64,000 bases of DNA, taken from Chelativorans intermedius. Its GTDB lineage: Bacteria > Pseudomonadota > Alphaproteobacteria > Rhizobiales > Rhizobiaceae. Under the pieces are notes generated by a model, which saw nothing but the letters and a program-made list of their open reading frames with translations, ran no database searches and was not told where the DNA came from. The stretch is taken from positions 1 to 64,000 of the forward strand of contig NZ_JAODNW010000003.1 of assembly GCF_025398255.1 (NCBI RefSeq), read 5' to 3'. Positions 8,521 through 62,103 of the stretch are shown here, one piece after another. Positions within the stretch are counted from its first letter, which is position 1. Every line of letters starts with the position of its first letter. A program made the position numbers and the translations under genes.

Positions 8521-8540
8521 AGTTCGTCTCTCCCGAAGGT

Positions 8541-10538: not shown

Positions 10539-10542
10539 GTTG

Positions 10543-12177: not shown

Positions 12178-12181
12178 TTTG

Positions 12182-12664: not shown

Positions 12665-12709
12665 GGCTGTTTCCTCGGGCGCATGGCCGTTCGCAGACGG
12701 AGCTTGCCG

Positions 12710-13165: not shown

Positions 13166-13174
13166 CGATCTTCA

Positions 13175-13203: not shown

Positions 13204-13280
13204 ATAGCCGCTTGGCGCGCCGCTCTCAACGGATGAGATGTCGCACCTGGCCGCTTGGGGCGGCATTCGCGCCTTCTTCT

Positions 13281-13294
13281 TTGTGATTGCACAA
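13281..13294. promoter_or_regulatory. FNR/NnrR-type box (TTGTG-N4-CACAA)
   Basis: The 14-mer TTGTGATTGCACAA is a perfect dyad with the geometry of CRP/FNR-family sites. It lies about 50 bases before the GTG start of the DUF1858 gene and about 80 bases beyond the NsrR-type palindrome, so it could act on either divergent unit. A similar dyad occurs before pseudoazurin and nirK. Confidence 0.55.
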
Positions 13295-13330
13295 CGATCC
13301 GGCCCGGCCAGCCGGCGATGATTGGCAGGA

Positions 13331-13336
13331 AGGAGG
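13331..13336 (+). promoter_or_regulatory. Ribosome binding site deciding the GTG start at 13342
   Basis: AGGAGG sits five bases before GTG 13342-13344, whereas the earlier in-frame ATG at 13318 has no comparable site. This favours a 68-residue product. Confidence 0.6.
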
Positions 13337-13341
13337 AGACG

Positions 13342-13548
13342 GTGAGAGAGCGGCGACCAGATCCCGAGATGACGCTGGAGGAAGTCATGACGGCCTGGCC
13401 GGCTTGCGTTTCCGTCATCCTTCGTCATCGCATGTTGTGCGTCGGCTGCCCGATCACCCCGTTCCACACCATTGCCGATGCCTGCCGCGCCCACGGGGTG
13501 GACGAGGCGGCCTTTCTGGAGGCCCTTCAGGCCGCGATCGCGGCCTGA
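13342..13548 (+). CDS. DUF1858 domain protein (hybrid-cluster-protein-associated redox fold)
   Basis: A 68-residue protein consisting of a DUF1858 module. The pattern MTLEEVMTAWPACVSVILRH, then CVGC and a FHTIADACRAHGVD segment, is typical of this family, which accompanies hybrid cluster protein and ScdA/Ric-type iron-sulfur repair proteins. The Cys pair may form a redox disulfide or hold a cluster. It is divergent from the truncated haemoglobin gene and has an FNR-type box upstream, so it is probably induced under low oxygen or NO. An alternative ATG at 13318 would add eight residues. Confidence 0.8.
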   Translation: MRERRPDPEMTLEEVMTAWPACVSVILRHRMLCVGCPITPFHTIADACRAHGVDEAAFLEALQAAIAA

Positions 13549-13555
13549 AGGTCGC

Positions 13556-14257
13556 TCAGCCGTCTTCGCGGCTTTCCGCCTTCAGCACCAGGCGGTGGGG
13601 GTCTCGCACGATCACCCGCTTGCGTCCGCTTCTGACGATTTCCTGCTCTTCCCAGGCGCTCAAGAGGCGGCTGACAGTGTGCAGGGTCGCGCCCGTCATC
13701 TCCGCAATGTCCTGGCGCGTGATGGGAAAGTCGATCTCGATGCCTTCGTCCGTCTGGCGGCCGGTCTGGCGCACGAGGCGCAGCAGCGCGTGTGCCACGC
13801 GCTGCTCCACCTGTTCGGTGGACATCTCGACCACCCGTGTGTGCGCGTCCTGCAGCCGGTTGCCCACCGTCTTGTAGGTGTTGACGCCGATAAGGGGAAA
13901 GCGAGCCGACAGTTCGGGCCACAGCGCGCTCGGCCAGGCCAGAACCACGCAGTCGACAGCGGCAATCGCCGTTGCGGGATAGGTGGTGCGGCCAAGGGCG
14001 GCGGCGATGCCGAACACTTCGCCTTCGCTGATGTAGCGCACGATCACCTGCTCGCCCTCCGGCGTGGTGCGCACCACGCGCACATAGCCGTCGAGCAGGA
14101 CGAAGAACGAATGCGCTTCCGCCTCCTGCTCGAAGATGGCTGCCTCCCGCGCAAACCGCAGGGAACGGGCCGATGAGAGCACCTGCGCGAGCTCTTCCCT
14201 TTGCAGACCTTCAAAGGGCGGCAGACCGGCAATCAGCGATGTATCGAGTTTCGGCAC
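13556..14257 (-). CDS. CRP/FNR family regulator, NnrR/Dnr-like
   Basis: A 233-residue regulator with an N-terminal cyclic-nucleotide-binding fold (FVLLDGYVRVVRTTPEGEQV; EGEVFGIAAAL) and a C-terminal winged helix (ITRQDIAEMTGATLHTVSRLLSAWEEQ). The N-terminus lacks the cysteine cluster of FNR, so it is not an Fe-S oxygen sensor; NnrR/Dnr-type NO or haem sensing is more likely. It lies beside pseudoazurin, nnrS and nirK. A TTGCG-N4-CGCAA box in the 114-bp divergent promoter to pseudoazurin is a likely target, and could also mediate autoregulation. Confidence 0.85.
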   Translation of the reverse strand: MPKLDTSLIAGLPPFEGLQREELAQVLSSARSLRFAREAAIFEQEAEAHSFFVLLDGYVRVVRTTPEGEQVIVRYISEGEVFGIAAALGRTTYPATAIAAVDCVVLAWPSALWPELSARFPLIGVNTYKTVGNRLQDAHTRVVEMSTEQVEQRVAHALLRLVRQTGRQTDEGIEIDFPITRQDIAEMTGATLHTVSRLLSAWEEQEIVRSGRKRVIVRDPHRLVLKAESREDG

Positions 14258-47854: not shown

Positions 47855-48595
47855 TCAATTGAAGACAAAGCCGTTGTTGAGCGGCAGGGTCTGGCCGGTC
47901 AGCGTCAGGGCGCCTTCCGTCAGCAGAAAGGCGATGGCCTCGGTGATCTCCTCGGGACCCTGCGGGCCGGGCACGGCGCGGCCCTCGGCATAGAGCCTGT
48001 GGCGGGCCTCCGGCACGTAGCCGGTCGATTCGGTGGTCAGGATGCCGGGGGCGACAGCGGTCACGCCGATGCGGTCCGGTCCCAGTTCGCGCGCCAGCGA
48101 GCGCGTCATGGCGATGACGGCCCCCTTGCTGGCTACATAGGACATCAGCCGCGGCGCCCCCCAAAGGGCGGTGTCGGAGGCGATGTTGACCACCCGTCCC
48201 GAGCCGGAAGCCTTGAGCAGGGGCGCGGCCGCCCGCGTCATCAGCCATGTGCCACGCACGTTGACGCGCATCACCGCGTCCCAGCTCTCGATCTCGATCT
48301 CGTCGAAGGCGATGCCGCCGATGCCGGTGGCGATGGCACCGTTGTTGACGAGGCCGTGCAGCCTGCCATCGGCGATCTGCCCGACCTCCCGGCCGAGCGC
48401 GGCGACGGACCGGGGGTCGCCCAGGTCGACGCGCAGGAAGTCCGCACCGAGCGTGCCGGCCGTCCGGCGGCCCGCCTCCTCGGCGATGTCGGCCAGGATG
48501 AGGCGCGCGCCGTGGCGGGCGAGCGTGTGCGCGATCTGCGCACCGAGCCCGCGCGCGGCACCCGTGACCAGTATGGTGCGTCCCTGCAGCATCAC
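47855..48595 (-). CDS. SDR family dehydrogenase (putative dihydrodiol dehydrogenase)
   Basis: A 246-residue classical short-chain dehydrogenase with TGAARGLGAQ, an ILADIAEEAG acidic strand end, NNGAIAT, NIASDT serine and YVASK. It overlaps the Rieske oxygenase stop by four bases, the place where cis-dihydrodiol dehydrogenases usually lie, so re-aromatisation of the oxygenase product is likely. The catalytic tetrad is intact, unlike that of the other SDR in this operon. Confidence 0.88.
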   Translation of the reverse strand: MMLQGRTILVTGAARGLGAQIAHTLARHGARLILADIAEEAGRRTAGTLGADFLRVDLGDPRSVAALGREVGQIADGRLHGLVNNGAIATGIGGIAFDEIEIESWDAVMRVNVRGTWLMTRAAAPLLKASGSGRVVNIASDTALWGAPRLMSYVASKGAVIAMTRSLARELGPDRIGVTAVAPGILTTESTGYVPEARHRLYAEGRAVPGPQGPEEITEAIAFLLTEGALTLTGQTLPLNNGFVFN

Positions 48596-49641
48596 TCGGC
48601 GGCCTGCGCAAGCTCGGCTTCCACCTGGCTCTTCGCGGCGCGCGTGAGGATCTGGCGGATGCGCGACACGCCCAGGTCGTGCTGATAGAGCATCTCGCGC
48701 TTGCGCGCGTCGTCCGGCATGCCCTCCAGCATGACGCGATCCTGCTCCAGCACGTTCCAGTGGTTCTGCTCCAGCCGTGCGCGATACAGGAAGCGCCAGC
48801 TTTCGCGCGCCAGGCCCGTCACCTTGCGCATGCGCCAGAAGAACACCTTGCAGGTTTTCTCATCGACCGGCGTGACGAAGCCCAGGATGCGCATGAAGCC
48901 GCCCGGCCCGGCGGCCGGCGGATAGGGGATGTCCAGGAAGCAGAACATGGAGCCCGGATGGATCTCGAACTCCGTCCAGTCGAAGTTCTCGCCCACCTGG
49001 CCGACACGGCTGATGCGGAAACCCGCCTCCGTCTTGTCGAGCTTCATGAGATCCTGCTTGGAGCCGTAGGCGAGCGTGAAGCTCTCGGCATGCAGGTAGC
49101 AGCCGTGCATCGGATCGGCGAGGTTGTCGAGCGCATAGCGGTAGTTGGTTTCCCAAAGGCCGGTGCACAGAAAACCGGTCCACTCGTCGCTCGTCAGCTC
49201 CCTGGGAAGCGCGAGTTCGGGGGCCTGCGGCTGCTCGACGGACGGCACATAGACGAACACGGCGTCGTTGGATTCCGTCACCTGATAGGATTTCAGCGCC
49301 TTTCGGCCTTCCAGCGCACATTCGGGCATGGCCGGCACGCGCACCACCACGCCCTCGCCGTTGACGATCACCCCGTGATAGCGGCAGCCGATGTTGCCCT
49401 CATGGATCTCCCCATAGGAAAGGGGTGCGCCGCGGTGCGGGCAGAAATCCTCGATGCAGTTGATCTTGCCGGCGGCGTCGCGCCACAGCACGATCTTCTC
49501 GCCGAGAAGGCGTGTTCCATAGGGCCTGGACGCCTTCACCTCCACGGACTTTGCCACCGGGTACCACTGCCCGCGCAGGCCGCTGTTCACCCTTTCCTCG
49601 ATGAGGGCTTTCTTGTCGATGGCTGTCATCGTTGTCTCCAT
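48592..49641 (-). CDS. Rieske non-haem iron oxygenase, alpha subunit
   Basis: A 349-residue oxygenase of the phthalate/vanillate-type (alpha-only) class. The Rieske cluster ligands are C67, H69, C86 and H89 (FCPHRG; GCRYHG). The mononuclear iron site is N-x2-D-x2-H-x4-H with D176, H179 and H184, and a late acidic residue in LEQDRVMLE. No beta subunit gene follows. It would hydroxylate or dihydroxylate an aromatic ring or demethylate it, with electrons probably from the FprA-like reductase and flavodoxin at the end of the operon. Confidence 0.92.
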   Translation of the reverse strand: METTMTAIDKKALIEERVNSGLRGQWYPVAKSVEVKASRPYGTRLLGEKIVLWRDAAGKINCIEDFCPHRGAPLSYGEIHEGNIGCRYHGVIVNGEGVVVRVPAMPECALEGRKALKSYQVTESNDAVFVYVPSVEQPQAPELALPRELTSDEWTGFLCTGLWETNYRYALDNLADPMHGCYLHAESFTLAYGSKQDLMKLDKTEAGFRISRVGQVGENFDWTEFEIHPGSMFCFLDIPYPPAAGPGGFMRILGFVTPVDEKTCKVFFWRMRKVTGLARESWRFLYRARLEQNHWNVLEQDRVMLEGMPDDARKREMLYQHDLGVSRIRQILTRAAKSQVEAELAQAAE

Positions 49642-49681
49642 CAGTTGAGCCGGGGCTGTTTTGCTTTCGTGGCGGCGCGTC

Positions 49682-50521
49682 TCACCCCTGCGCCTTGGGC
49701 AGGTAGTGAAGCACCCGTGCCTCGACGCGCGCGAGCGCGGAATAGAGGACGAAGCCGATCACGGTCAGAAGCACGATGGCGTTGAAGACCATCGCCGCAT
49801 TGGCCTGGCCGCCGCCATAGGAGATGAGGAAGCCGAGGCCCGTATTGCCGCCCACCAGCTCGCCCACCGTCACGCCGATCACGGCGAGGGTGGAGGCGAT
49901 ACGCAGGCCGGCCATCAGGCTGGGCATGGTGGAGGGCATCTCGACCTTGCGGAAGATGCGCCAGCGCGAAAGGTTGTAGGCCCGGGCGAGATTGATGAGG
50001 TCGCGATCGACCGTCTTCATCGCCTGCAGAACGTTGACGAGAACCGGAAAGAAGACGATCAGCACCGTCACCAGCAGCTTGGGCATGGAGTTGTAGCCGA
50101 ACCACATAATGAACAGCGGTGCGAAGGCGACCTTGGGCGCGATCTGCAGTGCCAGGATGTAGGGGGAGAGCACCTTCTCCCAGAACTCCGACATGCCGAG
50201 CACATAGCCGATCGCCGCGCCGAGGAGACTGCCGATGGCGAAACCCAGCACCGTGTAGAGGGCGGTGGAGAAGGTGTGCGCCAGAAGGCTTTCCTGCGTC
50301 CACATCCTCTGCAACTCGACGATGCAGTCGCTGACGGTGGGGATGATGAACTTCGGTACGCCGAGCGCGGGCGGCAGGAATTCCCAAGCCAGCAGAACCA
50401 GCACCAGAAGCGCGAGGCTGGCAAACAGCGTGCTGTGGGTCGCCGCCATGGCCGCCTTTCCCTGTCGTTCCTTGCGAGCCGGGGCCTGCGCCCCGGCCGG
50501 CACGGGCGTTGCCTGTGTCAT
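49682..50521 (-). CDS. ABC transporter permease (NitT/TauT family)
   Basis: A 279-residue membrane protein with about six helices. The EAA loop that contacts the ATPase reads LINLARAYNLSRWRIFRKVEMPSTMPSL in part, followed by GLRIASTLAVIGVTVGE, typical of NitT/TauT/phthalate importers. The TM start is near residue 30 after a polar leader. It overlaps the binding-protein gene by four bases and lies 40 bases before the Rieske gene. It forms the channel of a one-permease homodimeric importer. Confidence 0.9.
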   Translation of the reverse strand: MTQATPVPAGAQAPARKERQGKAAMAATHSTLFASLALLVLVLLAWEFLPPALGVPKFIIPTVSDCIVELQRMWTQESLLAHTFSTALYTVLGFAIGSLLGAAIGYVLGMSEFWEKVLSPYILALQIAPKVAFAPLFIMWFGYNSMPKLLVTVLIVFFPVLVNVLQAMKTVDRDLINLARAYNLSRWRIFRKVEMPSTMPSLMAGLRIASTLAVIGVTVGELVGGNTGLGFLISYGGGQANAAMVFNAIVLLTVIGFVLYSALARVEARVLHYLPKAQG

Positions 50522-51492
50522 TGGACGAACTCGTTCGTGTAGAGATCTTCGACGGGCACCGCCTTCTGCACGATGCCGCTTTCGAGATAGAAGGTCTGCA
50601 CCTCGGCGATGCGTTGGGGATCGAAGGCACCGAGCGGCTGGTTCTCGCCCTCGGGATAGACAAGCTCAGCATAGGCGCGCAGGATGGCTTCGATCTCAGC
50701 CTCCTTGCCGGCGTGCTGCTGCATGAAGGAGGTGTACTCGACTGCCGCCTTTGCCGGGTCGTCGGAAATCTCGCGAATGGCCTTCAGAACGGCGGCAACG
50801 AATCCTTCGATCACCTCGGGACGCTCGGCAATGGTCTTGTCGGAGGCGATGATGGCCTGTGCCATGGCGGGGAAGACCCTGTCGACCGGCATCTGCTCCA
50901 TCTCTACACCGGCAGCCTCGACGGCGGCGATCCACTCGGGAACGCCCGAGAACGCCTGAAGATTGCCGGCGATGGTGAGCTGGATGATGCCGCCGGGGCC
51001 GACGGCCTGAATGTCGGCGTCGGCCTTCGAGAGACCGGCAGAGGCGAGCACCCCGAGCAGGTTGTAATAGGTGGTGTCCTGGAAGGAGAGAACACCGATG
51101 GTCTTGCCCTTCAGGTCCGCAGGCCCGGAAATGCCGCTGTCGGCGCGCCAGGCGAGCTGGGTCAGGCCGCGCCCGCCCAGCAGCGCTACACCGCGGATGT
51201 CGAGCCCGTTGGCGCGCACGATAATGGGGGTGTCCCCAATGCCGCCGCCGAGGTCGGCATTGCCGACGGCCACCTGGACGGCGACATCCGCACCCCCCTT
51301 GCCGACCTGAAAATCGACGTCGAGGCCGGCTTCCTCGAAATATCCCTTGTGCTTTGCAAGCTGGAATGGCGCGAAGGCCGGCAGGAAATCCGGCGCCGGA
51401 AAGAGATAGGTCACTTTCTCGGCTGCCATGCTCACCGGCGTCGCGAGGGCAAGGGCGGCCGCCGCGGCGGCCATGGCAATCAAGCGTTTCAT
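50518..51492 (-). CDS. ABC transporter substrate-binding protein (NitT/TauT/NMT1-like)
   Basis: A 324-residue periplasmic protein with a Sec signal ending near residue 24 (VSMAAEK). FQLAKHKGYFEEAGLDVDFQVGKGGAD and the DLKGKTIGVLSFQDTTYYN block are characteristic of NMT1/SsuA-type binding proteins. These capture small organic acids, sulfonates, thiamine precursors or aromatics. It is the specificity element of the operon's importer; the ligand should be the pathway substrate. Confidence 0.9.
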   Translation of the reverse strand: MKRLIAMAAAAAALALATPVSMAAEKVTYLFPAPDFLPAFAPFQLAKHKGYFEEAGLDVDFQVGKGGADVAVQVAVGNADLGGGIGDTPIIVRANGLDIRGVALLGGRGLTQLAWRADSGISGPADLKGKTIGVLSFQDTTYYNLLGVLASAGLSKADADIQAVGPGGIIQLTIAGNLQAFSGVPEWIAAVEAAGVEMEQMPVDRVFPAMAQAIIASDKTIAERPEVIEGFVAAVLKAIREISDDPAKAAVEYTSFMQQHAGKEAEIEAILRAYAELVYPEGENQPLGAFDPQRIAEVQTFYLESGIVQKAVPVEDLYTNEFVQ

Positions 51493-51519
51493 CGGGTTCC
51501 CCTTCGTTTCGTCATTCTG

Positions 51520-52290
51520 TCAGATCGCTTTTTCTTCGAGCTTCAGGTGCCGGAAGATCTGACCGGCATAGTCGCTCACCTCCGGCATGGTGCGCCGCCT
51601 GAGCGGCTCATCGCGGTGCGGAAGGTCCACCACGATCTCCGCCACCACCCTTCCCGGCCGCTCCGAGAGCACCAGAATGCGATCCGACATCAGGACGGCC
51701 TCGGCGAGGTCGTGAGTGATGAGCAGCGTCGTCTTGCGGGACTCGGCAATCGTGCCGGCGAAGCTGTTTTGCAGGAGAAGCTTGGTCTGCGCATCGAGGG
51801 CAGAGAACGGCTCGTCGAGCAGCACGATTTCCGGTTCGATGGCCAGTGTGCGCGCCAGGGCGGCGCGCTGGCGCATGCCGCCGGAGAGCTGATAGGGAAA
51901 GTGGTTCTCGAAGCCGGCGAGGTGGCAACGCTCAAGCTCCGCCATGGCACGCCGGCGCCTGTCCGCCGCCGGCACGCCGCGCGCCTCCAGACCGAACTCG
52001 ACATTGGAAACGATGTTGCGCCAGGGCAGAAGCAGGTCCTTCTGCAGCATGAAGCCGACATGCCCGTTGGGCCCGCGCACCACCTCGCCGCTGACCAGAA
52101 CCTCGCCTTGGGTGGGCTGGTAGAGGCCGGCGGTCATGCTCAGAAGGGTGCTCTTGCCACAACCCGACGGACCGACAACGGAAACGAACTCGCCTTCGTT
52201 CACCACGAAGCTGACGTCGCTCACCGCGGTGAGCACCTCGCCGCTGCGGGTCAGGAACTCCTTGGTGACGGAGCGGAACTCAAGCGCCAT
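51520..52290 (-). CDS. ABC transporter ATP-binding protein (NitT/TauT family)
   Basis: A 256-residue ATPase. Walker A GPSGCGKST, Q-loop FMLQKDLLLPW, signature YQLSGGMRQRAALAR, Walker B EIVLLDEPFSALD and switch histidine LITHDLAEAV are intact. I chose the ATG at 52288-52290, where similarity starts; it overlaps the small HTH gene by 11 bases. It powers the importer encoded by the next two genes. Confidence 0.92.
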   Translation of the reverse strand: MALEFRSVTKEFLTRSGEVLTAVSDVSFVVNEGEFVSVVGPSGCGKSTLLSMTAGLYQPTQGEVLVSGEVVRGPNGHVGFMLQKDLLLPWRNIVSNVEFGLEARGVPAADRRRRAMAELERCHLAGFENHFPYQLSGGMRQRAALARTLAIEPEIVLLDEPFSALDAQTKLLLQNSFAGTIAESRKTTLLITHDLAEAVLMSDRILVLSERPGRVVAEIVVDLPHRDEPLRRRTMPEVSDYAGQIFRHLKLEEKAI

Positions 52291-52582
52291 AGCCGTTGGC
52301 CTCGTAGGCCGCATCGAGCGCCCTGTTGGTCGTCTCCAGCTCTTCGGCCAGCAGTGCCTCGCTCCAGTCCGTGCGGCCCGAACGGGGCGCGACGACGCCC
52401 TTCTCGGAAAGGCGGCGCGCGACGGCGGCAAAGTCGTGCACGCCCTCGCCGTAGATCTCCATCAGCGCGTCGGCGAGGGCCTCTTCGCGCTCGTCGAGCG
52501 CGCGGCCGCGGCACTGATGAGCGAGCGCCGGGCGGCTGGTGTCACGAGCGTGCTGGGAAAGCCGATCCTTGAAAGCATCCAT
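52280..52582 (-). CDS. Recombinase-like helix-turn-helix domain small protein
   Basis: A 100-residue protein whose central part (YGEGVHDFAAVARRLSEKGVVAPRSGRTDWS) resembles the helix-turn-helix segment of serine recombinase C-termini (LNxxGIxTPxGxxW), without a catalytic domain. Stand-alone proteins of this kind are found at the head of aromatic or heterocycle catabolic operons. DNA binding is plausible but the function is unknown. It starts 26 bases after the palindromic operator and is the first gene of the operon. Confidence 0.72.
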   Translation of the reverse strand: MDAFKDRLSQHARDTSRPALAHQCRGRALDEREEALADALMEIYGEGVHDFAAVARRLSEKGVVAPRSGRTDWSEALLAEELETTNRALDAAYEANGYGA

Positions 52583-52607
52583 TGCTGCTCCTCCCGATAT
52601 TCCTCCG

Positions 52608-52641
52608 ACTATGTTCATATTAGAACATAGTGTTCATAAAA
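52608..52641. promoter_or_regulatory. Operator of the catabolic operon: palindrome plus direct repeat
   Basis: ACTATGTTC (52608-52616) and GAACATAGT (52623-52631) form a perfect 9-base inverted repeat with six bases between. The 10-mers GTTCATATTA (52613) and GTTCATAAAA (52632) repeat directly with a 19-base period, as in the iclR promoter. A palindrome plus an extra direct 10-mer recalls the three-repeat sites described for PcaU/PobR-type IclR proteins. Occupation by the IclR protein at 38167 is inference. Confidence 0.7.
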
Positions 52642-52643
52642 GG

Positions 52644-52672
52644 ATCATGCTGCAGGAGCGCGCCGGAGTCAA
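52644..52672 (-). promoter_or_regulatory. Candidate sigma70-type promoter of the catabolic operon
   Basis: On the minus strand TTGACT (52672-52667) and CATGAT (52649-52644) are 17 bases apart. Transcription would begin near 52637, inside the operator, so bound regulator would block it. The -10 match is imperfect. Confidence 0.45.
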
Positions 52673-52750
52673 GAACCCATCGTCAAATTGCGTTCCGCTT
52701 GCCTCCCGGCGGGCGCGGTGCGGCCCGCGCCCCGTGCGATGCCCCGTGCA

Positions 52751-52787
52751 AAACGGCGAACGCCCGGCACGTCGTGCCGGGCGTTCG
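52751..52787 (-). terminator. Intrinsic terminator of the gamma-glutamyl/ADH operon
   Basis: CGAACGCCCGGCACG (52757-52771) and its exact complement (52773-52787) form a long perfect stem. On the minus strand it is followed by CCGTTTTGC, giving a short U run. It lies 33 bases after the Fe-ADH stop and insulates that operon from the next promoter. Confidence 0.85.
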
Positions 52788-52820
52788 TGTCCTCGTCGTC
52801 GGTGCGGCGTCGCCGGCCGC

Positions 52821-53966
52821 TCAGATGGTCTCTTCGTAGAGCCGGCGGGTGGTCGCCCTGTCGAGGGGCACGGGATTGCCGGCGGCGGTGGGATCGACCA
52901 GGGCCATCTCCACCATCTCGTCGATGCGCTCGGCGCCCACCCCGAGAGCCGACAGCCTGTCTGGCACGCCCAGGTCGGCGCGCAGGGCCAGCACCATGTC
53001 GAGAAAGCCATCGAAGCCGCCAGCAATGCCCATATAGGCGGCCGCCGCGGCAATCTTCTGCTCGATGGCCGGGCGGTTGAAGCGCAGGACGGCCGGCATG
53101 ACGACAGCGTTCGTCGTGCCATGATGGGTGTCGTAGAGCGCGCCCACGGGGTGGGAAAGCGCGTGGATGGCGCCGAGGCCCTTCTGGAAGGCGACGGCGC
53201 CCATCGCGGCGGCCGCCATCATGTGGCCGCGTGCCTCGATGTCCTGCGGATCGGCGAAGACCCTGGGCAGGTTTTCCTTCACCAGCCGCATGCCTTCCAG
53301 CGCGATGCCCTGGCTCATGGGGTGGTAGGAGGGCGAAGAATAGGCCTCCAGGCAATGGGCGAGGGCGTCCATGCCTGTGCCGACGGTGATCGCCCTGGGC
53401 ATGCCGACGGTGAGCTCGGGATCGCAGATGGTGGCGGCGGGCAGCATCTTCGGATGGAAGATCACCTTCTTCACGTGGCTTTCGGAATTGGTCAGCACGC
53501 CGGCACGGCCGACCTCGGAGCCGGTGCCCGCCGTTGTCGGCACGGCAACAATGGGCGCGATCCTGTCGGCATCCGCCCGCGTCCACCAGTCGCCAACGTC
53601 CTCGAAGTCCCAGACGGGGCGCGACTGGCCGGCCATGAAGGCGATCAGCTTCCCGAGATCGAGACCCGAGCCGCCGCCGAAGGCGACGACGCCGTCATGT
53701 CCGCCCTGCCTGAAGGCGGCAATGCCGGCGGCAAGGTTCTTCTCGTTCGGGTTCGGGTCGACCTCGCTGAACATTGCGCGACCAAGACCGGCCGCCTCCA
53801 GAATGTCCAGCGCCCTCCCGGCGATCGGCAGGGGCGCAAGCCCGCGATCGGTCACCAGCAGCGGCCGCTTCATGCCGGCGGCCTTGCATGCCTCTGCCAG
53901 TTCGGCAAGGCGCCCCGCGCCGAAGCGAACCGAGGTGGGATAGGACCAGTTGACGGAAACACTCAT
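52821..53966 (-). CDS. Iron-containing (group III) alcohol dehydrogenase
   Basis: A 381-residue Fe-ADH. The NAD-binding GGGSGLDLGK, PTTAGTGSEV, CDPELTVGMP, and the metal-site region GTGMDALAHCLEAYSS with HALSHPVGALYDTHHG are complete. It oxidises a primary alcohol or reduces an aldehyde. The ATG at 53964-53966 overlaps the aldehyde dehydrogenase stop by four bases. As the last gene of an operon with a gamma-glutamyl ligase, it could oxidise the hydroxyl of a gamma-glutamylated amino alcohol. Confidence 0.9.
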   Translation of the reverse strand: MSVSVNWSYPTSVRFGAGRLAELAEACKAAGMKRPLLVTDRGLAPLPIAGRALDILEAAGLGRAMFSEVDPNPNEKNLAAGIAAFRQGGHDGVVAFGGGSGLDLGKLIAFMAGQSRPVWDFEDVGDWWTRADADRIAPIVAVPTTAGTGSEVGRAGVLTNSESHVKKVIFHPKMLPAATICDPELTVGMPRAITVGTGMDALAHCLEAYSSPSYHPMSQGIALEGMRLVKENLPRVFADPQDIEARGHMMAAAAMGAVAFQKGLGAIHALSHPVGALYDTHHGTTNAVVMPAVLRFNRPAIEQKIAAAAAYMGIAGGFDGFLDMVLALRADLGVPDRLSALGVGAERIDEMVEMALVDPTAAGNPVPLDRATTRRLYEETI

Positions 53967-55351
53967 GCCTGACGCTTTCTCAGATAGAAGGATTTGGGAC
54001 GGGTAAGGTTGTGATAGCCGATCTCCGAGAGGGCACCGCCGCGGCCGGTCGCCTTGCATCCGGTCCAGCACAGTGCCGGGTCGAGATAGTCGGCGCGGTT
54101 CATGAACACGGTGCCGGTCTCGATCCCGGCGCCCAGCCGCTCCGCACGGGCGGGATCCGCCGTCCACAGCGAGGCCGTCAGCCCATAGGGACTGTCGTTC
54201 ATCAGGGCGAGCGCCTCGGCATCGTCCTTGACGGGCATGATGCCGACGACCGGGCCAAAGCTTTCCTCGCGCATCACCCGCATCCGGTGGTTCACGTCCA
54301 CGAGGATCTGCGGGGCGAGATAGGTGCCGCCATCATCCTCGGGAAACAGCTTCGGGTCGATCAGGGTGCGCGCGCCCTCGGCCAGCGCCTCGCTGATCTG
54401 CGCGCGCACCGTCTCCGCAAAACGCCGGCTGGCCATCGGCCCCAGGGTGGTTTCCTCCTCCAGCGGATTGCCGAGCTTGAGCCCTTTCACCCAGGCGACG
54501 GCCTTCTCCACGAAAGGCTCGAACAGGCTTTCGGCCACATAGATGCGTTCGATGCCGCAACAGCACTGGCCGGCGTTGAACATGGCGCCGTCCATCAGCC
54601 CGTCGACGGCCCAGTCGAGGTCGGCATCCTCCATCACATAGCCGGGGTCCTTGCCGCCGAGCTCCAGCCCAAGGCCGGTGAAGGTGCCGGCGGCGGCACG
54701 CTCGATCGCCTTGCCGCCGCCCACCGAGCCGGTGAAGTTCACGAAGCCGAAAAGGCCGGCGGCAATCAGCGCCTCGGTACCGGCATGGTCGAGAAAGAGG
54801 TTGACGAACACGTCTTCCGGCACGCCCGCCTCGCGGAAGGCGCGCACCATGCGCTCACCCACCAGGAGGGTCTGCGTGGCGTGCTTGATCGCCACGGCGT
54901 TGCCGGCGATGAGGGCCGGAACCACCGTGTTGATTGCCGTCAGATAGGGATAGTTCCACGGTGCGATGACGAGCACGACGCCGTGCGGCTCGCGCCGGAT
55001 GAAACGCCGGTGTGTCTGCGAATCCTCGATCTCGATGGGAGAGAGTGCCTTCTGCGCGATCGAGGCCATGTAGTCGGCGCGCTCGTTGACGCCGCCGAAC
55101 TCGCCGCCATAGCGCACGGGCCGGCCCATCTGCCAGGCAAGCTCGGGCACCACCTCGTCCTTCATCGCGTTGAGGCGGGCGATGCCGGCCCTGACTAGGT
55201 CGACCCGTTCCTTGAGCGGGCGGGCGGCCCACGCCTTCTGGGCGCGGGCTGCCTGCTCGATGAGCTTTGCCGCCTCTTCGACGGCCATCACGGGTCGCTC
55301 GGCATAGACCGAGCCGTCGACGGGCGAGATGCATTGCAGTGTTTTCGGCAT
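53963..55351 (-). CDS. Aldehyde dehydrogenase
   Basis: A 462-residue NAD(P)-dependent aldehyde dehydrogenase of a shorter subgroup. The oxyanion Asn is in IAPWNYP, the base E230 in LELGGKDP, and the nucleophile lies in a run of three cysteines (GQCCCG, 261-266). The ATG at 55349-55351 begins one base after the gamma-glutamyl ligase stop. It probably converts the aldehyde made by the adjacent alcohol dehydrogenase to an acid. Confidence 0.9.
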   Translation of the reverse strand: MPKTLQCISPVDGSVYAERPVMAVEEAAKLIEQAARAQKAWAARPLKERVDLVRAGIARLNAMKDEVVPELAWQMGRPVRYGGEFGGVNERADYMASIAQKALSPIEIEDSQTHRRFIRREPHGVVLVIAPWNYPYLTAINTVVPALIAGNAVAIKHATQTLLVGERMVRAFREAGVPEDVFVNLFLDHAGTEALIAAGLFGFVNFTGSVGGGKAIERAAAGTFTGLGLELGGKDPGYVMEDADLDWAVDGLMDGAMFNAGQCCCGIERIYVAESLFEPFVEKAVAWVKGLKLGNPLEEETTLGPMASRRFAETVRAQISEALAEGARTLIDPKLFPEDDGGTYLAPQILVDVNHRMRVMREESFGPVVGIMPVKDDAEALALMNDSPYGLTASLWTADPARAERLGAGIETGTVFMNRADYLDPALCWTGCKATGRGGALSEIGYHNLTRPKSFYLRKRQA

Positions 55352-55352
55352 G

Positions 55353-56720
55353 TCAGGCTCTTTCAAATCCGCGTTTGACCTCCCAGTCGGTGACGTGGCG
55401 GTCATATTCCTGTTGCTCCCAGCGCGCTGCGTGGACATAGTGGTCGATCACCGCGTCACCGAAGGCTTCGCGCAGCATCTTCGAGCCGTCGAGTGCCGCC
55501 GTCGCGTCGCGCAGCGTGCGCGGTATCTCGCGCACATCCGTGCCGTGATAGGCATCGCCCACGAAGGCCGGTTCGAGGGGCAGCCCGTTCTCGATGCCGG
55601 CAATGCCGGCGGCGATCAGCGCGGCGAAGGCCAGATGCGGCGTCAGGTCGGCACCGCCCACCCGGCATTCCACGCGCACGGCCTTGGTGTCGGCGCCGCA
55701 CACGCGGTAGCCGGCGGTCCGGTTGTCCATCGACCAGATGGCCTTGGTGGGGGCGAAGGTGCCAGCGGCGAAGCGCTTGTAAGAATTGATGTGGGGGGCG
55801 AGGAAATAGGTGATTTCCGCGGCATGGGCCAGAAGACCGGCCATGTAGTGCCGCATCGTCTGCGACATGCCGTGCTCGGCCTGCGGGTCGTGGAAAAGCG
55901 GCTTGCCGTCCAGCGACCACAACGACTGATGGATATGCGAGGAACTGCCGGCGGCGCGATCGTCCCACTTGGCCATGAAGCTGACGGCATGGCCGTTCTG
56001 CCAGGCAATCTCCTTGCAGGCATTCTTGATGATGGCATGGCGGTCGGCCATGGTCAGCGCATCAGCATAGCGCACGTTGATCTCTTCCTGGCCGGCATCC
56101 GCCTCGCCCTTGGAATTTTCCACCGGGATGTCGGCGCCGTTCAGCCCGTTGCGGATCGCCCGCATCACCGCCTCTTCCTTCGTCGTCTGGAAGATGTGGT
56201 AGTCCTCGTTGTAGGCGCTGATGCGCTCCAGGCCGCGCCAGCCCTTGGCCTGTGCCTGCTCGAAGGAATCGCGGAAGAGGAAGAACTCCAGCTCGGAGGC
56301 CATCATGGCCCGCATGCCCATCGCCTCCAGCCGTGCGATCTGCTTCTTCAGGAGGGCGCGGGGCGAATGCGCCACCTCCCCATGGGTATGGTGGTCCAGC
56401 ACGTCGGCAATCACCAGCGCGGTGCCTTCCAGCCACGGAACGCGGCGCAGGGTCGAAAGGTCTGGCCTCATCGTGTAGTCGCCATAGCCGGCCGCCCAGC
56501 TCGTCGCGCGGTAACCCTCCACCGTGTACATCTCCATGTCGGTGGCCAGCAGATAGTTGCAGCTGTGGGTTTCCTCGAAGGCGCTGTCGAGGAAGAAATC
56601 GACATGGAAGCGCTTGCCCATGAGGCGGCCCTGCATGTCGACCTGCGCGACGATGACCGTGTCGATCTCCCCCGCCGCGGCGGCGGCCTTCAGCGCGTCC
56701 ATTGTCAGTTTTCCCGCCAT
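55353..56720 (-). CDS. Glutamine-synthetase-like gamma-glutamyl amine ligase (PuuA/IpuC-type)
   Basis: A 455-residue GS-fold enzyme. Metal-binding MASELEFFLF, the GEADAGQEEINVRYADAL block (QxEI in place of GQxE), GSSSHIHQSLW, the NSYKRFAAGTFAPTKAIW region and NRTAGYRV identify the type III GS-like family that ligates glutamate to amines such as putrescine, isopropylamine or ethanolamine, using ATP. True glutamine synthetase is unlikely, given the catabolic neighbours. It follows a TRAP transporter gene after a perfect palindrome. Confidence 0.88.
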   Translation of the reverse strand: MAGKLTMDALKAAAAAGEIDTVIVAQVDMQGRLMGKRFHVDFFLDSAFEETHSCNYLLATDMEMYTVEGYRATSWAAGYGDYTMRPDLSTLRRVPWLEGTALVIADVLDHHTHGEVAHSPRALLKKQIARLEAMGMRAMMASELEFFLFRDSFEQAQAKGWRGLERISAYNEDYHIFQTTKEEAVMRAIRNGLNGADIPVENSKGEADAGQEEINVRYADALTMADRHAIIKNACKEIAWQNGHAVSFMAKWDDRAAGSSSHIHQSLWSLDGKPLFHDPQAEHGMSQTMRHYMAGLLAHAAEITYFLAPHINSYKRFAAGTFAPTKAIWSMDNRTAGYRVCGADTKAVRVECRVGGADLTPHLAFAALIAAGIAGIENGLPLEPAFVGDAYHGTDVREIPRTLRDATAALDGSKMLREAFGDAVIDHYVHAARWEQQEYDRHVTDWEVKRGFERA

Positions 56721-56752
56721 GTGCGTCTTCCCGTCGTTCGGTTGGTCGGAGT

Positions 56753-56782
56753 TTCGGACCCGGAGGGCCCTCCGGGTCCGAA
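56753..56782. repeat. Perfect 30-bp palindrome between dctP and the GS-like gene
   Basis: TTCGGACCCGGAGGG (56753-56767) is followed at once by its exact complement (56768-56782). The RNA would form a very stable hairpin within the operon. No U run follows on either strand, so it more likely protects or separates the dctP mRNA from the downstream genes than terminates transcription outright. Confidence 0.75.
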
Positions 56783-56800
56783 GGATGGCTGACGGCGCGA

Positions 56801-57850
56801 TCAGCCGTAGCGGTAGGGCGGCCCTGCCTTGCGCATGACCTCACGATACTGGCGCAGGATTTCCACCACGCGCTGCCGGCGGCCGCCCTCGGCAGCGATC
56901 TCGTCCCAGAACTTCTCGGCCTCCGCCTCGACCTGCTCCCACTCCTCGTCGGGAATGGTCGTCAGCTCCATCTTGGCGCCGTTGACGCGCAGATCCGCCT
57001 CGCCGGCCCAGTACCAGTGCAGTCGGTAGTAGTGCGAGGAGTCCATGGCCAGGCGCAGGAGAGTTTTCAGGTGCTCGGGCACCTCGTTCCAGCGCTCGGT
57101 GTTGGCGAAGAAGTGGCCGATCCAGGCACCGCAGATGTTGTTGGTGAGGAAATAGGGCGTCACGTCCGCCCAGCCCACCGTGTAGTCCTCGGTGATGCCC
57201 GACCAGGCAATGCCGTCAAGCTCGCCCGTCTGCACCGCCACCTCGACATCCTCCCACGGCAACGTCACCGGCACGACGCCGAAGCGCGACAGGAAGCGGC
57301 CGGCCGTGGGGAAGGTGAACACGCGCTTGCCCTTCAGGTCCTCCAGGCTGCGGATCGGCTCCTTGGTGTTGAAGTGACAGGGATCCCACGAGCCGGCCGA
57401 CAGCCAGGTGACGTTCTCCACCTCGCCATAGGCTTCCTGCCAGATCTCGGCCAGGCCATATTTGTAGAAGAGCGCCTGCACGTCCAGCGAATAGCGGGTG
57501 GCAAAGGGGAAGTAGCCGCCGAAGACCGAGACGTCGACGGGAGCGGCCATGGAATCGTCGTCCGACTGCACCGCGTCGATGGTGCCGTTCTGCATGGCGC
57601 GGAAAAGCTCGCCGGTGGGCACGAGCTGATCGGCGAAGTAGAGCTCGATCTCCATCTCGCCATTGGCCGCCTTGTTGAAGGCGTCGATGGCGGGCTTGAC
57701 CACATGCTCGGCAAGCGCCGGGCCGGCATAGGTCTGCATACGCCAGCGAATGGGCGACTGGGCCTTCACATAGGGGGCGGCCAGCGTCGCGCTGCCGGCG
57801 GCAGCGGTGGCGAGGCCGGCCTTGGTGAGAAATTGTCTTCGGTTCTGCAT
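56801..57850 (-). CDS. dctP: TRAP transporter substrate-binding protein DctP
   Basis: A 349-residue periplasmic protein. A Tat-type leader (NRRQFLTKAGLATAAA) ends near residue 31. The binding domain shows the conserved arginine region FTFPTAGRFLSRFGVVPV and the TGELDGIAWSGITEDYTVGW block of DctP_PAAT-type proteins that bind 2-oxo acids or amino compounds. The ATG is at 57848-57850. With DctQ and DctM it makes a Na+-driven uptake system for the operon's substrate. Confidence 0.9.
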   Translation of the reverse strand: MQNRRQFLTKAGLATAAAGSATLAAPYVKAQSPIRWRMQTYAGPALAEHVVKPAIDAFNKAANGEMEIELYFADQLVPTGELFRAMQNGTIDAVQSDDDSMAAPVDVSVFGGYFPFATRYSLDVQALFYKYGLAEIWQEAYGEVENVTWLSAGSWDPCHFNTKEPIRSLEDLKGKRVFTFPTAGRFLSRFGVVPVTLPWEDVEVAVQTGELDGIAWSGITEDYTVGWADVTPYFLTNNICGAWIGHFFANTERWNEVPEHLKTLLRLAMDSSHYYRLHWYWAGEADLRVNGAKMELTTIPDEEWEQVEAEAEKFWDEIAAEGGRRQRVVEILRQYREVMRKAGPPYRYG

Positions 57851-57921
57851 GTCTCGTTCTCCTCTGGTTGGTTTTCGGGTTCGTGCCGCTTCTTCTGCCT
57901 CCTCGATGCCGTCACCTCCCT

Positions 57922-59244
57922 TCATCGGATGTAGTAGTGCTGGGGCAGCCACAGGGCGATCTGCGGGAAGGCCATCACCAGCACGAGCGCCAGAACCATC
58001 ACCGCCACGAAGGGGATGATGGAGCGGTATATGTCGCCCAGGCTCACCTCCGGGGGAGCCATGGCGCGCATCAGGAAGAGGTTGTAGCCGAAGGGCGGGG
58101 TCATGTAGGCGATCTGGCAGGTGATGGTGTAAAGCACGCCGTACCAGATGAGATCGAAGCCCAGCGCCTTGACCAGGGGGATGTAGAGCGGTGCGACGAT
58201 GACGAGCATCGCCGTGTCGTCGAGAAACATCCCCATGACGAGATAGGAGAGCTGCATCAGGATCAGCACCTCCCAGGGCGAAAGCCCCAGCTTGTCGAGA
58301 AAGAAGTTCTCGATGGCGCGCACCGCGCCCAGGCCGTCGAAGACGGCGCCGAAGCAGAGCGCTGCGAGGATGATCCACATGAACATGCAGGAGATGGAGA
58401 GCGTCTTCTTCACCGTGGTATGAAAGACGGCCCAGGAAAGGCGCCCGCGGATGGCGGCGGCGAGCGTGGCGGAAACGGCACCGATGGCCGAACTCTCCAC
58501 GAGGCTGGTATAGCCCATGACGAAAAGGCCCGTCATCGCCATGAAGATGAAGAAGGGCAGGATGCCGGCCGAAAGCAGCTTCAGTTTCTCGCCCCACGGC
58601 ACCTGCCGCTCCGCCGCCGGCAGAACCGGGCCGAGGCGTGGCTGCAGCCAGCAGCGGATGGCGATGTAGAGTATGAAGAGGCCGGCCATCATGAGCCCCG
58701 GGAAGACGCCGGCCAGCCAGAGCTGGCCCACCGGCTGGCGGGCGATCATGGCATAGAGCACCAGCACCACGCTCGGCGGCACCAGGATGCCCAGCGATGA
58801 GCCGGCCTGGATGACGCCCGTCACCATCACCTTGTCGTAGCCGCGGCGCAGAAGCTCCGGCAGTGCTATCGTCGCGCCGATGGCCATGCCGGCCACCGAG
58901 AGCCCGTTCATGGCCGAGATCACCACCATCAGCGCGATGGTTCCGATGGCAAGGCCGCCGCGCACCGGACCGAACCAGACGTGAAACATCTTGTACAGGT
59001 CGTCGGCGATCCCCGACTCGGAGAGCATGTAGCCCATGTAGATGAAGAGTGGCAGCGTGAGCAGCGCGTACCACTTCATCAGCTTCATGGCGGCCGAGAA
59101 GGCAATCTCGGAGCCGCCCGTGCCCCAAAGCATGAGCGCGAAGACGACGGCGATGAAGCCGATGGCCCCGAACACGCGCTGGCCTGTCAGAAGCAGGCCC
59201 ATCATGCCGGAGAACATGAGGATGGCGGTCATCTCGTAGCTCAC
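57922..59244 (-). CDS. dctM: TRAP transporter large permease DctM
   Basis: A 440-residue protein with about 12 membrane helices. The DctM motifs GMAIGATIALPELLRRGYDK, GSSLGILVPPSVVLVLY, MGMFLDDTAMLVIVAPLYIP and MTPPFGYNLF are present. I use the GTG at 59242-59244, which overlaps the dctQ stop by four bases; an ATG four codons later is possible. It forms the ion-coupled channel. Confidence 0.92.
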   Translation of the reverse strand: MSYEMTAILMFSGMMGLLLTGQRVFGAIGFIAVVFALMLWGTGGSEIAFSAAMKLMKWYALLTLPLFIYMGYMLSESGIADDLYKMFHVWFGPVRGGLAIGTIALMVVISAMNGLSVAGMAIGATIALPELLRRGYDKVMVTGVIQAGSSLGILVPPSVVLVLYAMIARQPVGQLWLAGVFPGLMMAGLFILYIAIRCWLQPRLGPVLPAAERQVPWGEKLKLLSAGILPFFIFMAMTGLFVMGYTSLVESSAIGAVSATLAAAIRGRLSWAVFHTTVKKTLSISCMFMWIILAALCFGAVFDGLGAVRAIENFFLDKLGLSPWEVLILMQLSYLVMGMFLDDTAMLVIVAPLYIPLVKALGFDLIWYGVLYTITCQIAYMTPPFGYNLFLMRAMAPPEVSLGDIYRSIIPFVAVMVLALVLVMAFPQIALWLPQHYYIR

Positions 59245-59750
59245 GACAGCTCCTCCCCGCGCGCCAGGGCCAGATCGCGGAAGAACTGGGCGATTGCCTG
59301 AAGCAGCATCAGCGCCACGCCGATGCACATGACGATCTTGATCGGCGCCATGTAGGGCGACCAGGCCGAGTAGCTGGTCTCGCCATAGCGCAGCGCATAG
59401 GCGGTGGAGGAGAAGCCGCCATACAGCAGGATGCAGAGATAGAAGATCAGGAACAGGATGGTGACGCTGTCGACCATGGCGCGCGTGCGCGGCCCCCAGT
59501 TGGCATAGATGAGATCCATGCGCACGTGGGAATCGTGCTGCAGAGACCAGCCGCCGCCCAGCATGTAATAGGCCGCCATCACGAACTGGGCCATCTCCAG
59601 CGTCCACAGCGGCGGGATGGCCACCGCCTTCATCACCGAGGAGTAGAGAAGAATCCCGATCATCGCCACGACGAGATACATGGCGAACAGGCCGACAACC
59701 CGGTTGACGCGGTCGATCAGTCTCACATAGCGGCGCACAATCTCAGGCAT
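59241..59750 (-). CDS. dctQ: TRAP transporter small permease DctQ
   Basis: A 169-residue protein with four predicted helices and the DctQ pattern VVAMIGILLYSSVMKAV, PPLWTLEMAQFVMAAYYMLGG and SHVRMDLIYANWGPRTRAMVD. The ATG at 59748-59750 begins family similarity. It partners DctM in the TRAP importer. It lies 54 bases after the amidohydrolase gene and is translationally coupled to dctM. Confidence 0.9.
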   Translation of the reverse strand: MPEIVRRYVRLIDRVNRVVGLFAMYLVVAMIGILLYSSVMKAVAIPPLWTLEMAQFVMAAYYMLGGGWSLQHDSHVRMDLIYANWGPRTRAMVDSVTILFLIFYLCILLYGGFSSTAYALRYGETSYSAWSPYMAPIKIVMCIGVALMLLQAIAQFFRDLALARGEELS

Positions 59751-59804
59751 GGCGTTCCGCCTCGCCGGGGCGCGCACGGTGCTGCGTTCGCTCCATTGTT
59801 CTCC

Positions 59805-60599
59805 TCATTTGGCGAGTGTTTCCCCTTTCAGCGCCGCAAGCGCCATTTTCAGGTGCCGCGCCAGCAGGTCCGCCATTGCCTTCTGCTCTGCGGCGCCGGC
59901 AATCAGATCGTTGCGGATTTCGATCATCACGTTGTCGAGCCCCCTGCCGAGCGCCTGGTCGGCGAGCGTGTGCGTCACGCCGTCCTGCGGTCCGTAGGGC
60001 TCGTTGCGGCGCACGATCCATCCGCCCTCCTGCGCAAGAGAGGCTATCAGCGCATCGGCAAGGCGACGGTCGCGATCGTGCAGGATGCCGATCTCCACGG
60101 CGCGCCGGCGGCCGAGATAGACCGGCGTGAAGGAATGCACGGTGACGAGGGCTGGCGCCTTCCCCGCCTGCATGCGGGAATCGAGGCAGGCCGAAAGCGC
60201 GGCACGGAAGGGAAAATAGAACCGCTCGGCGCGGCGCATCCGCGCGGCCCGGGTGAGCCCGGCATTGCCGGGGATCGTATAGGCCTCGCTGCGCGCCGGC
60301 GTGGCATCCGGGGCATGCGGCGGGCGGTTGCAGTCGTAGACGAGACGGGAGATGCGGCTTGCCACCAGCGGCGCATCGAGAAGGGCCGAAAGGTGCAGCG
60401 CCACCGCATGGGCGCCGGGGTCCCAGGCGACGTGACTCGCCAGCGCCTCTGCATCGAGGCCGAGATCGGAAAATTCCGCGGGAATGGCATTGGAGGCGTG
60501 TTCGCAGGCCAGCACGAACGGTCCGGCGCCATCGGGGTTGAGCGTCTCCACCACCCCCGGTTCCGCGGCGCCTTCTCCTCCTTGGTGCCTGTCTGTCAC
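59805..60599 (-). CDS. N-formylglutamate amidohydrolase family protein
   Basis: A 264-residue zinc amidohydrolase. The signature LACEHASNAIP (metal-binding H and E), VYDCNRPP, TVHSFTPVYLG and MIEIRNDLI matches the NFGase family. The family hydrolyses N-formyl-glutamate in histidine catabolism, but no hut genes are near. Next to a gamma-glutamyl ligase it may instead release glutamate from an N- or gamma-glutamyl product. The start is a GTG at 60597-60599 with GGAGGGG upstream. It is first in the operon. Confidence 0.87.
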   Translation of the reverse strand: MTDRHQGGEGAAEPGVVETLNPDGAGPFVLACEHASNAIPAEFSDLGLDAEALASHVAWDPGAHAVALHLSALLDAPLVASRISRLVYDCNRPPHAPDATPARSEAYTIPGNAGLTRAARMRRAERFYFPFRAALSACLDSRMQAGKAPALVTVHSFTPVYLGRRRAVEIGILHDRDRRLADALIASLAQEGGWIVRRNEPYGPQDGVTHTLADQALGRGLDNVMIEIRNDLIAGAAEQKAMADLLARHLKMALAALKGETLAK

Positions 60600-60751
60600 C
60601 AGCCCCTCCTGCCAGAACAGAAAATATCTTTTCACATTTGTCGTAGCGGTCAAGATTAATTCTGAAAATTTTGCTACAGACCAATCGGAAGAGTCTCGAT
60701 CCTTTGGAGATGTTCGTCGGGCGGCGCGGAGCGGGGGAGGTTTTTGGGGAC

Positions 60752-61627
60752 ATGGATGCATCGAACGGGAAGACGGTGGCAGAGCGTCTGCGGGGCGCCT
60801 TCGAGACTCTCACGCGCGCCGAGCGGCAGCTCGCCAACGCGCTTCTCGACAACTATCCCCTGCTCGGGCTGGAGAGTATTACGGCGGTGGCGGACTCGGC
60901 CGGCGTATCCACCCCCACCGTGGTGCGCATGGCCAAGAAGCTGGGCTTCGGCGGCTTTCCCGAAATGCAGGCGGCCCTCCGGGCAGAGCTGCAGGCCACC
61001 ATCTCCAATCCCATAGCCAAGCACGACCAGTGGGCCGAAAGCCCGCTTGAGGGCCATCTGCTCAGCCGCTTCGCCGACGCGGTGACGGAGAACATCCGCC
61101 AGACTCTCAACCAGCTCGACAAGCGCACCTTCGATGCCGTGGCGGACCTGCTGGCCGATGAAGGGCGCAACGTCCACGTGGTGGGCGGGCGCATCACCCG
61201 CTCCATGGCCGATCACTTCTTCACCCACATGCAGGTGATCCGCCCGGGCGTGACGCAGATCGCCTCGAACTCCAATTCCTGGCCGCACTACGTGCTCAAC
61301 ATGCGCGCCGGCGACATTCTGGTGGCCTTCGACATTCGCCGCTACGAGCACGACATATTGCGGCTGGCCGAGATGGCGCGGGCGCGCGACGTCACCGTCG
61401 TCCTGTTCACCGACCAGTGGGGCTCGCCCGCCGCCCGCCATGCCGCCCACCGTTTCCACGCCCGCATCCAGGTGCCCTCGGCCTGGGATTCGACGGCGGT
61501 CATCCTGTTCATCGCCGAGGCGCTGATCGCCGCCATCGAGACGCGCACCTGGGAGACGACGCGGGCGCGCATGAACGAGCTCGAAGAGCTGTTCGACAAG
61601 ACACGGCTGTTCCGCAAGTTCGTGTGA
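60752..61627 (+). CDS. RpiR/MurR family regulator with SIS domain
   Basis: A 291-residue regulator. The RpiR helix-turn-helix is ESITAVADSAGVSTPTVVRMAKKLGF, and the SIS domain contains VHVVGGRITRSMADHFF and DILVAFDIRRYEHDILRLAEMA. The SIS ligand loop differs from sugar-type RpiR proteins, matching a subgroup associated with amine and amino-acid operons. It is divergent from the NFGase-led operon across 152 bp of unusually AT-rich sequence, the likely operator zone. An ATG 14 codons upstream is a possible start. Confidence 0.88.
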   Translation: MDASNGKTVAERLRGAFETLTRAERQLANALLDNYPLLGLESITAVADSAGVSTPTVVRMAKKLGFGGFPEMQAALRAELQATISNPIAKHDQWAESPLEGHLLSRFADAVTENIRQTLNQLDKRTFDAVADLLADEGRNVHVVGGRITRSMADHFFTHMQVIRPGVTQIASNSNSWPHYVLNMRAGDILVAFDIRRYEHDILRLAEMARARDVTVVLFTDQWGSPAARHAAHRFHARIQVPSAWDSTAVILFIAEALIAAIETRTWETTRARMNELEELFDKTRLFRKFV

Positions 61628-61695
61628 CGGCAGCCACGGCGCCGTGCTCCGATCGGTCGCAGTGACTTCGCGTCCGGCACGTGCGAAGGGGAGGC

Positions 61696-62103
61696 ATGAG
61701 CACCATGCGGCGCATTCTGGGCGATCGGCTGAGCGGCGGGATTTTCGCCGCTCTCGTGGCCTATGTGCTCGCCGTCCAGGGGCTTTTGTCCGCCTTCGCA
61801 CAGGGGGCGCTCGCAGCGCCGCGCCCGGATACGGGCTTTGTCATCTGCTCGCTGGCGGGGGGTGTGTCGGCCAGGCCGGACCGCTCGCACCTGCCGCTGG
61901 AGCGCGCGGCCCATCACTGCTGTGCGGCGTTGTGCCATGCCGCCGCCGCCCACAGCCCCGCGCTGCCCGCCGCCGATGCCGCGCCTGCCTTCCTTTCGCG
62001 CGAGGGCGGGAAGCCGCAAGCCTTCTCCCCGCATGTGCCTCTACTTCCCGCCGCTCTCGGGCTGGCGGCCGAGGCCCGCGCCCCGCCTTTCCTCTCCGCG
62101 TGA
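61696..62103 (+). CDS. DUF2946-like protein, possibly copper-linked
   Basis: A 135-residue protein with an N-terminal hydrophobic segment (ALVAYVLAVQGLLSAFAQG, about 20-38) and a Cys/His cluster (AAHHCCAALCHAAAA, near 75-88). This layout resembles the small DUF2946 proteins found in copper homeostasis loci. It precedes a PCuAC copper chaperone and an SCO protein on the same strand. The cluster may bind a metal; there is no direct proof. The C-terminus is low-complexity. Confidence 0.65.
   Translation: MSTMRRILGDRLSGGIFAALVAYVLAVQGLLSAFAQGALAAPRPDTGFVICSLAGGVSARPDRSHLPLERAAHHCCAALCHAAAAHSPALPAADAAPAFLSREGGKPQAFSPHVPLLPAALGLAAEARAPPFLSA

Follow-up and report, generated by a model that had tools for sequence, protein, structure and literature searches.

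A seven-gene operon of Chelativorans intermedius is, in all probability, an eto-type operon for the utilisation of ethanolamine. It lies in the window analysed here, a stretch of 64,000 nt (assembly GCF_025398255.1, contig NZ_JAODNW010000003.1, forward strand, positions 1-64,000), and runs on the minus strand from 60599 to 52821. The closely packed genes encode, in order, a PF05013-family hydrolase, the small permease, large permease and binding protein of a tripartite ATP-independent periplasmic (TRAP) transporter, a glutamine-synthetase-type ligase, an aldehyde dehydrogenase (ALDH) and an iron-containing alcohol dehydrogenase (Fe-ADH). We infer the substrate, the role of the regulator and each enzymatic step at this locus. 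Our own observations concern gene content, gene order, protein families, key residues, conservation, the EutB search and a HutG encoded elsewhere in the genome. The data on induction of the operon proteins and on the binding of ethanolamine by EtoX are taken from print and concern an orthologous locus in an organism other than C. intermedius. Statements attributed to PMC10132767, PMC12410723, PMC4646407, PMC6529630 and PMC9397018 refer to the available parts of those papers.

The operon and its published counterpart

Each of the seven proteins matched its Pfam family (FGase, DctQ, DctM, DctP, Gln-synt_C, Aldedh and Fe-ADH) above the gathering cut-off. A preliminary description of this DNA had placed a TRAP importer, a ligase, an Fe-ADH, an ALDH and an N-formylglutamate amidohydrolase (NFGase)-like hydrolase in one operon, and the open reading frames and Pfam matches confirmed all of these members, together with the coordinates and the minus strand. 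Its list omitted the divergent RpiR-family regulator (60752-61627), which is a conserved member of the locus. Since the spacings along the seven genes are 54, -4, 71, 80, 1 and -4 bases, a single co-transcribed operon is likely.

The genes for the ligase, Fe-ADH, ALDH and PF05013 hydrolase stand together, and the order RpiR, GGAH (gamma-glutamylglycine amidohydrolase), EtoV, EtoW, EtoX, ligase, ALDH, Fe-ADH agrees with the locus tags of the Phaeobacter sp. MED193 operon, MED193_10021-10056, which reads RpiR, GGAH, EtoV, EtoW, EtoX, ETAGA, GAADDH, GETADH (PMC10132767). The last three are named there as ethanolamine gamma-glutamylase, gamma-glutamylacetylaldehydeamide dehydrogenase and gamma-glutamylethanolamide dehydrogenase. 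Both loci thus have eight genes in identical order with the RpiR gene adjoining the hydrolase gene, although MED193 is another organism and the match was made by gene names and locus-tag order, not by sequence identity. In MED193, five operon proteins increase during growth on phosphorylethanolamine. EtoX has a Kd of 7.9 uM for ethanolamine and bound none of four further ligands that the available text names (PMC10132767).

On this model, the TRAP system EtoVWX would import ethanolamine, and the ligase would join it to glutamate at the expense of ATP to give gamma-glutamylethanolamide. The hydroxyl of this intermediate would be oxidised to the aldehyde by the Fe-ADH and the aldehyde to gamma-glutamylglycine by the ALDH, after which the PF05013 hydrolase would release glycine and glutamate, the latter being thereby recycled. 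The RpiR regulator is predicted to govern the operon through the divergent promoter region. The scheme in the preliminary description (import and gamma-glutamylation, then conversion of the hydroxyl to an acid and removal of the glutamate) equals the MED193 ethanolamine pathway published for the same operon, as far as the available text goes, and is very probably right. Its substrate, "an amino alcohol or amine", can be narrowed to ethanolamine.

A search of the C. intermedius genome (completeness 99.97) for EutB gave no match (0/1), the E. coli positive control being matched, so this organism seems to lack the ammonia-lyase route. The ALDH carries ELGGK at 230 and NAGQCC at 259, with Glu230 and Cys264 as candidates for what we take to be the catalytic residues. 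Asp200, His204, His268 and His282 of the Fe-ADH fit the spacing that we assume for the metal site of the family.

The binding protein

The top match of the EtoX-like binding protein among solved structures was 4uab/4xf5 (545.5 bits, E 5.7e-163), the next match scoring 64.1 bits. The structure 4uab is Csal_0678 of Chromohalobacter salexigens with ethanolamine, in which Glu220 holds both the amine and the hydroxyl (PMC12410723). Reported Glu220 appears to be kept as Glu221 of the C. intermedius protein, assuming that the numbering in the paper runs 3 higher than that of the deposited chain. The alignment spans residues 30-348, and the stretch GITEDYTVGWA around the candidate glutamate is identical; Csal_0678 belongs to another organism, and the signal region falls outside the alignment. 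This glutamate was conserved in 36/36 loci having an EtoX homologue.

Csal_0678 is without the carboxylate-binding arginine of typical TRAP binding proteins (PMC4646407). The corresponding position, placed by alignment with 4yzz, is Phe178 in the C. intermedius protein; 30 of the 36 loci have Phe there and the other 6 have Tyr. The protein also has a twin-arginine-type signal (TIGR01409, 19.8 bits against a cut-off of 16.7).

The ligase

Among solved structures the ligase was closest to 5dm3 (626.5 bits), presumably a C. salexigens protein, and to 11zs (622.5 bits); other glutamine synthetases scored 170.3 bits or less. The label "PuuA/IpuC-like" in the preliminary description was thus loose. 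The ligase scored 236.4 bits against a cut-off of 429.15 for the ammonia-using GlnA model (TIGR00653), and 197.2 against 650 for the GGputSyn model of PuuA, the gamma-glutamylputrescine synthetase (NF045547). It was also far under the cut-off of the NCBIfam type III model. The nearest relatives with names, among the matches listed, were from Nitratireductor (85-86% identity).

In an alignment of the ligase, E. coli GlnA and PuuA, 15 of the 21 examined GlnA positions were identical in the ligase, the choice, numbers and roles of these positions being as we assume them. Those that differed were 50, 53, 179, 212, 264 and 327, and the alignment was poor near 50 and 53. The Asp50 column of GlnA falls in this poorly aligned part at ligase position 68, which is not conserved among relatives, and position 212 is an alignment gap whose column adjoins Glu206 of the ligase. 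GlnA Asn264 is Ala in both the ligase and PuuA. Glu327 of GlnA is replaced by Phe322 in the ligase and by Tyr340 in PuuA, and the Phe322 column was Phe in 100/100 compared loci.

The hydrolase

No NCBIfam model, that for HutG included, matched the hydrolase at E<=0.01, and its closest solved structure was 2odf, Atu2144 (258.7 bits). The genome holds four PF05013 proteins, encoded in the window and on contigs C11, C27 and C38. The C11 copy is HutG (TIGR02017, 370.3 bits; cut-off 278.75), with HutH and HutU adjoining, a profile and neighbourhood that the window hydrolase lacks. As a separate HutG stands beside HutH and HutU, the window hydrolase is not the enzyme of the histidine pathway.

The window hydrolase shared 22% identity with HutG, 29% with the C27 copy and 43% with the C38 copy. 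The 100 loci contained 85 ligase-linked homologues, with which its identity was 42-65% (median 53%). His34, Asp89, Asn91, Arg92, His155 and Glu227 were invariant in these 85 homologues and were also common to the three paralogues, so they are marks of the family and not of the pathway.

The preliminary description had held that an NFGase-type hydrolase in such a role would be new. This claim was mistaken. In 2019 a Streptomyces protein of the formylglutamate amidohydrolase family, SCO1615, had already been put forward as gamma-glutamylglycine amidohydrolase (PMC6529630); a table of 2022 gives PF05013 that role in both C. salexigens and S. coelicolor (PMC9397018), and MED193_10026 was given the name in 2023 (PMC10132767). 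An annotation paper on Ruegeria pomeroyi names, in the available passage, just a hutG gene (PMC4334477).

Conservation of the locus

The 100 loci compared are not a random sample, having been selected for a ligase closely related to that of C. intermedius. Eighty were the best 80 of at least 588 relatives, and the other 20 were stretches from 19 genomes, picked among 43 close matches outside the C. intermedius genome. Two pairs, L043/L123 (87,979 bases each) and L044/L127 (102,748 bases each), are probably the same contigs, so that at most 98 loci are distinct. Within the taxonomic family, 41 of 61 genomes (C. intermedius included) had a close ligase relative of at least 59% identity among the matches listed; some glutamine-synthetase-type match was found in 61/61, and in 20/61 there were distant ones alone.

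Regulator, hydrolase, ligase, ALDH and Fe-ADH were all present in order in 74/100 loci, and the gene arrangement exceeds chance. Three TRAP genes accompanied this core in 28 of the 74 loci and a homologue of the permease of locus L038 in 12, with neither in 34. In 12/100 loci, L038 included, the L038-type permease lay between hydrolase and ligase, at the TRAP position. By far the best NCBIfam model for the L038 permease was TIGR00908, ethanolamine permease (368.4 bits).

In the conserved loci the regulator gene kept its position and its orientation. Its product was 53-74% identical to those of many loci and 35-37% identical to those of the loci with the closest ligases (L035, L036 and L060-L062). 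Because of this low identity beside the closest ligases, the regulator gene may have a history different from that of the rest of the operon.

Some loci departed from this pattern. In L044 (positions 6792-13867; L127 is probably the same contig), a ligase and hydrolase pair occurred without ALDH and Fe-ADH, adjoining an acyl-CoA dehydrogenase, a family III CoA-transferase and a weakly dehydratase-like protein, as found by scanning. By inspection, L124 (1665-11956) resembled L044, with the ligase-hydrolase pair, similar frames and TRAP-like ones. This pair may also function in a different pathway. In L122 (an Oceanospirillaceae metagenome-assembled genome) and L134 (Neptunomonas antarctica) the TRAP genes preceded the hydrolase gene; no Fe-ADH homologue was detected in these two loci, where a different alcohol dehydrogenase may replace it.

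Related pathways

The GlnA4 pathway of Streptomyces coelicolor (SCO1611-SCO1615) shares with the C. intermedius locus the proposed chemistry and a hydrolase of the formylglutamate amidohydrolase family (PMC6529630). It differs in having a putative ethanolamine permease and the regulator EpuRI, whereas a TRAP transporter and an RpiR regulator are found here. The available text words the steps after the S. coelicolor ligase as predictions and describes the pathway of C. salexigens as an in silico prediction (PMC6529630).

The Puu pathway of E. coli (PuuA-PuuD) has the same logic of gamma-glutamylation, oxidation and hydrolysis, and its ligase is of the same superfamily, although only distantly related to that of C. 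intermedius. It uses an amine oxidase and a PuuD-type hydrolase, in place of the Fe-ADH and PF05013 hydrolase of the present operon.

Weighing the alternatives

Several observations weigh against the assignment to ethanolamine utilisation. None of the NCBIfam models matched by the operon proteins was pathway-specific, and the match of Glu220 to Glu221 depends on the numbering assumption given above. The L038 permease fell slightly under the TIGR00908 cut-off (381.75 bits). The core genes occurred without TRAP genes or an L038-like permease in 34/100 loci; by inspection, six of these (L065, L072, L080, L096, L116 and L123) had a frame of 515-548 residues between hydrolase and ligase, which in L096 and L123 matched general amino acid permease families alone, far under the cut-off. 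In L042, L053 and L091 the gap between hydrolase and ligase was too small for a permease. At least one core gene was missing in 26/100 loci, partly from contig ends. Finally, the non-linked C38 paralogue, at 43% identity, is no further from the window hydrolase than the linked homologues at the low end of their range (42%), which does not hold for HutG.

The same pathway layout could serve mainly another small amino alcohol, for example L-alaninol (2-amino-1-propanol), which would yield glutamate and alanine. This is compatible with the enzyme chemistry, and two PDB entries bear the Csal_0678 sequence, 4uab and also 4xf5, which we take to hold 2-amino-1-propanol. It is nevertheless very unlikely, as an ethanolamine-permease-like gene occupies the importer position in 12/100 loci, and the induction and binding data on the orthologous operon concern phosphorylethanolamine and ethanolamine (PMC10132767). 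We hold it equally improbable that the operon shifted within this lineage to alaninol or some other compound closely related to ethanolamine, in which case the hydrolase would free an amino acid other than glycine.

The family-level names Gln-synt_C and FGase and the 15 shared GlnA positions would allow the ligase to be an ordinary glutamine synthetase working on ammonia, with the hydrolase being HutG and adjacent by accident. This reading is hardly credible given the invariant Phe in the Glu327 column, the score under the GlnA cut-off, the true HutG on C11 and the gene association kept in 74/100 loci. As candidate identities, HutG for the hydrolase (no TIGR02017 match, separate HutG on C11) and ammonia-using glutamine synthetase for the ligase (TIGR00653 score under cut-off, Phe322) were rejected. 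The degradation of a polyamine or monoamine free of hydroxyl groups, of the putrescine or isopropylamine type, could be read from the distant GGputSyn similarity. That score is far under its cut-off, the core includes an Fe-ADH, and a Pfam scan of the seven genes found no PuuB-type oxidase or PuuD-type hydrolase; we regard this reading as extremely improbable. A Puu-type polyamine pathway was likewise rejected, on the GGputSyn score and the Fe-ADH in the core.

Layout of the locus

The features of the locus are listed in Table 1. A promoter scan looked for a sigma-70-type match in the regulator-hydrolase intergenic region (60600-60751) and found none. Over 52300-61700, the scan gave 1 promoter-like site against 1.2 in shuffled sequences and 5 terminator-like sites against 4.3, with no excess of either. 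Downstream on the same strand, positions 47855-52618 encode a small helix-turn-helix protein, an ABC importer whose binding protein is NMT1/THI5-like, a Rieske oxygenase whose C-terminus is of the VanA type, and a short-chain dehydrogenase. These genes may form a catabolic cluster of their own.

Table 1. Features of the predicted ethanolamine utilisation locus of C. intermedius (window coordinates).
Feature	Position	Strand	Basis
Gamma-glutamylglycine amidohydrolase candidate (GGAH)	59805..60599	-	Pfam FGase PF05013, 152.6 bits; 264 aa; GTG start after AGGAGG
EtoV-like TRAP small permease (DctQ)	59241..59750	-	Pfam DctQ, 75.4 bits
EtoW-like TRAP large permease (DctM)	57922..59244	-	Pfam DctM, 224.9 bits
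EtoX-like putative ethanolamine-binding protein (DctP), twin-arginine-type signal	56801..57850	-	4uab/4xf5 best structure match
Putative ethanolamine gamma-glutamylase, ETAGA-like, glutamine-synthetase-type ligase	55353..56720	-	Pfam Gln-synt_C, 333.3 bits
Putative gamma-glutamyl aldehyde dehydrogenase, GAADDH-like ALDH	53963..55351	-	Pfam Aldedh, 388 bits
Putative gamma-glutamylethanolamide dehydrogenase, GETADH-like iron-containing ADH	52821..53966	-	Pfam Fe-ADH, 161.3 bits, and ADH_Fe_C, 146.2 bits
Divergent RpiR/SIS-family regulator	60752..61627	+	Pfam SIS and HTH_6
Regulator-hydrolase intergenic region, expected site of promoters and operator	60600..60751	.	Position; inference

Implications

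The observation behind the preliminary description was right. As the operon and the ligand of its transporter are already in print, the locus adds little as a discovery. Family names alone (glutamine synthetase, N-formylglutamate amidohydrolase) mislead here, and the present analysis places the operon, with the confidence given at the outset, in a defined pathway that handles ethanolamine from membrane lipids.

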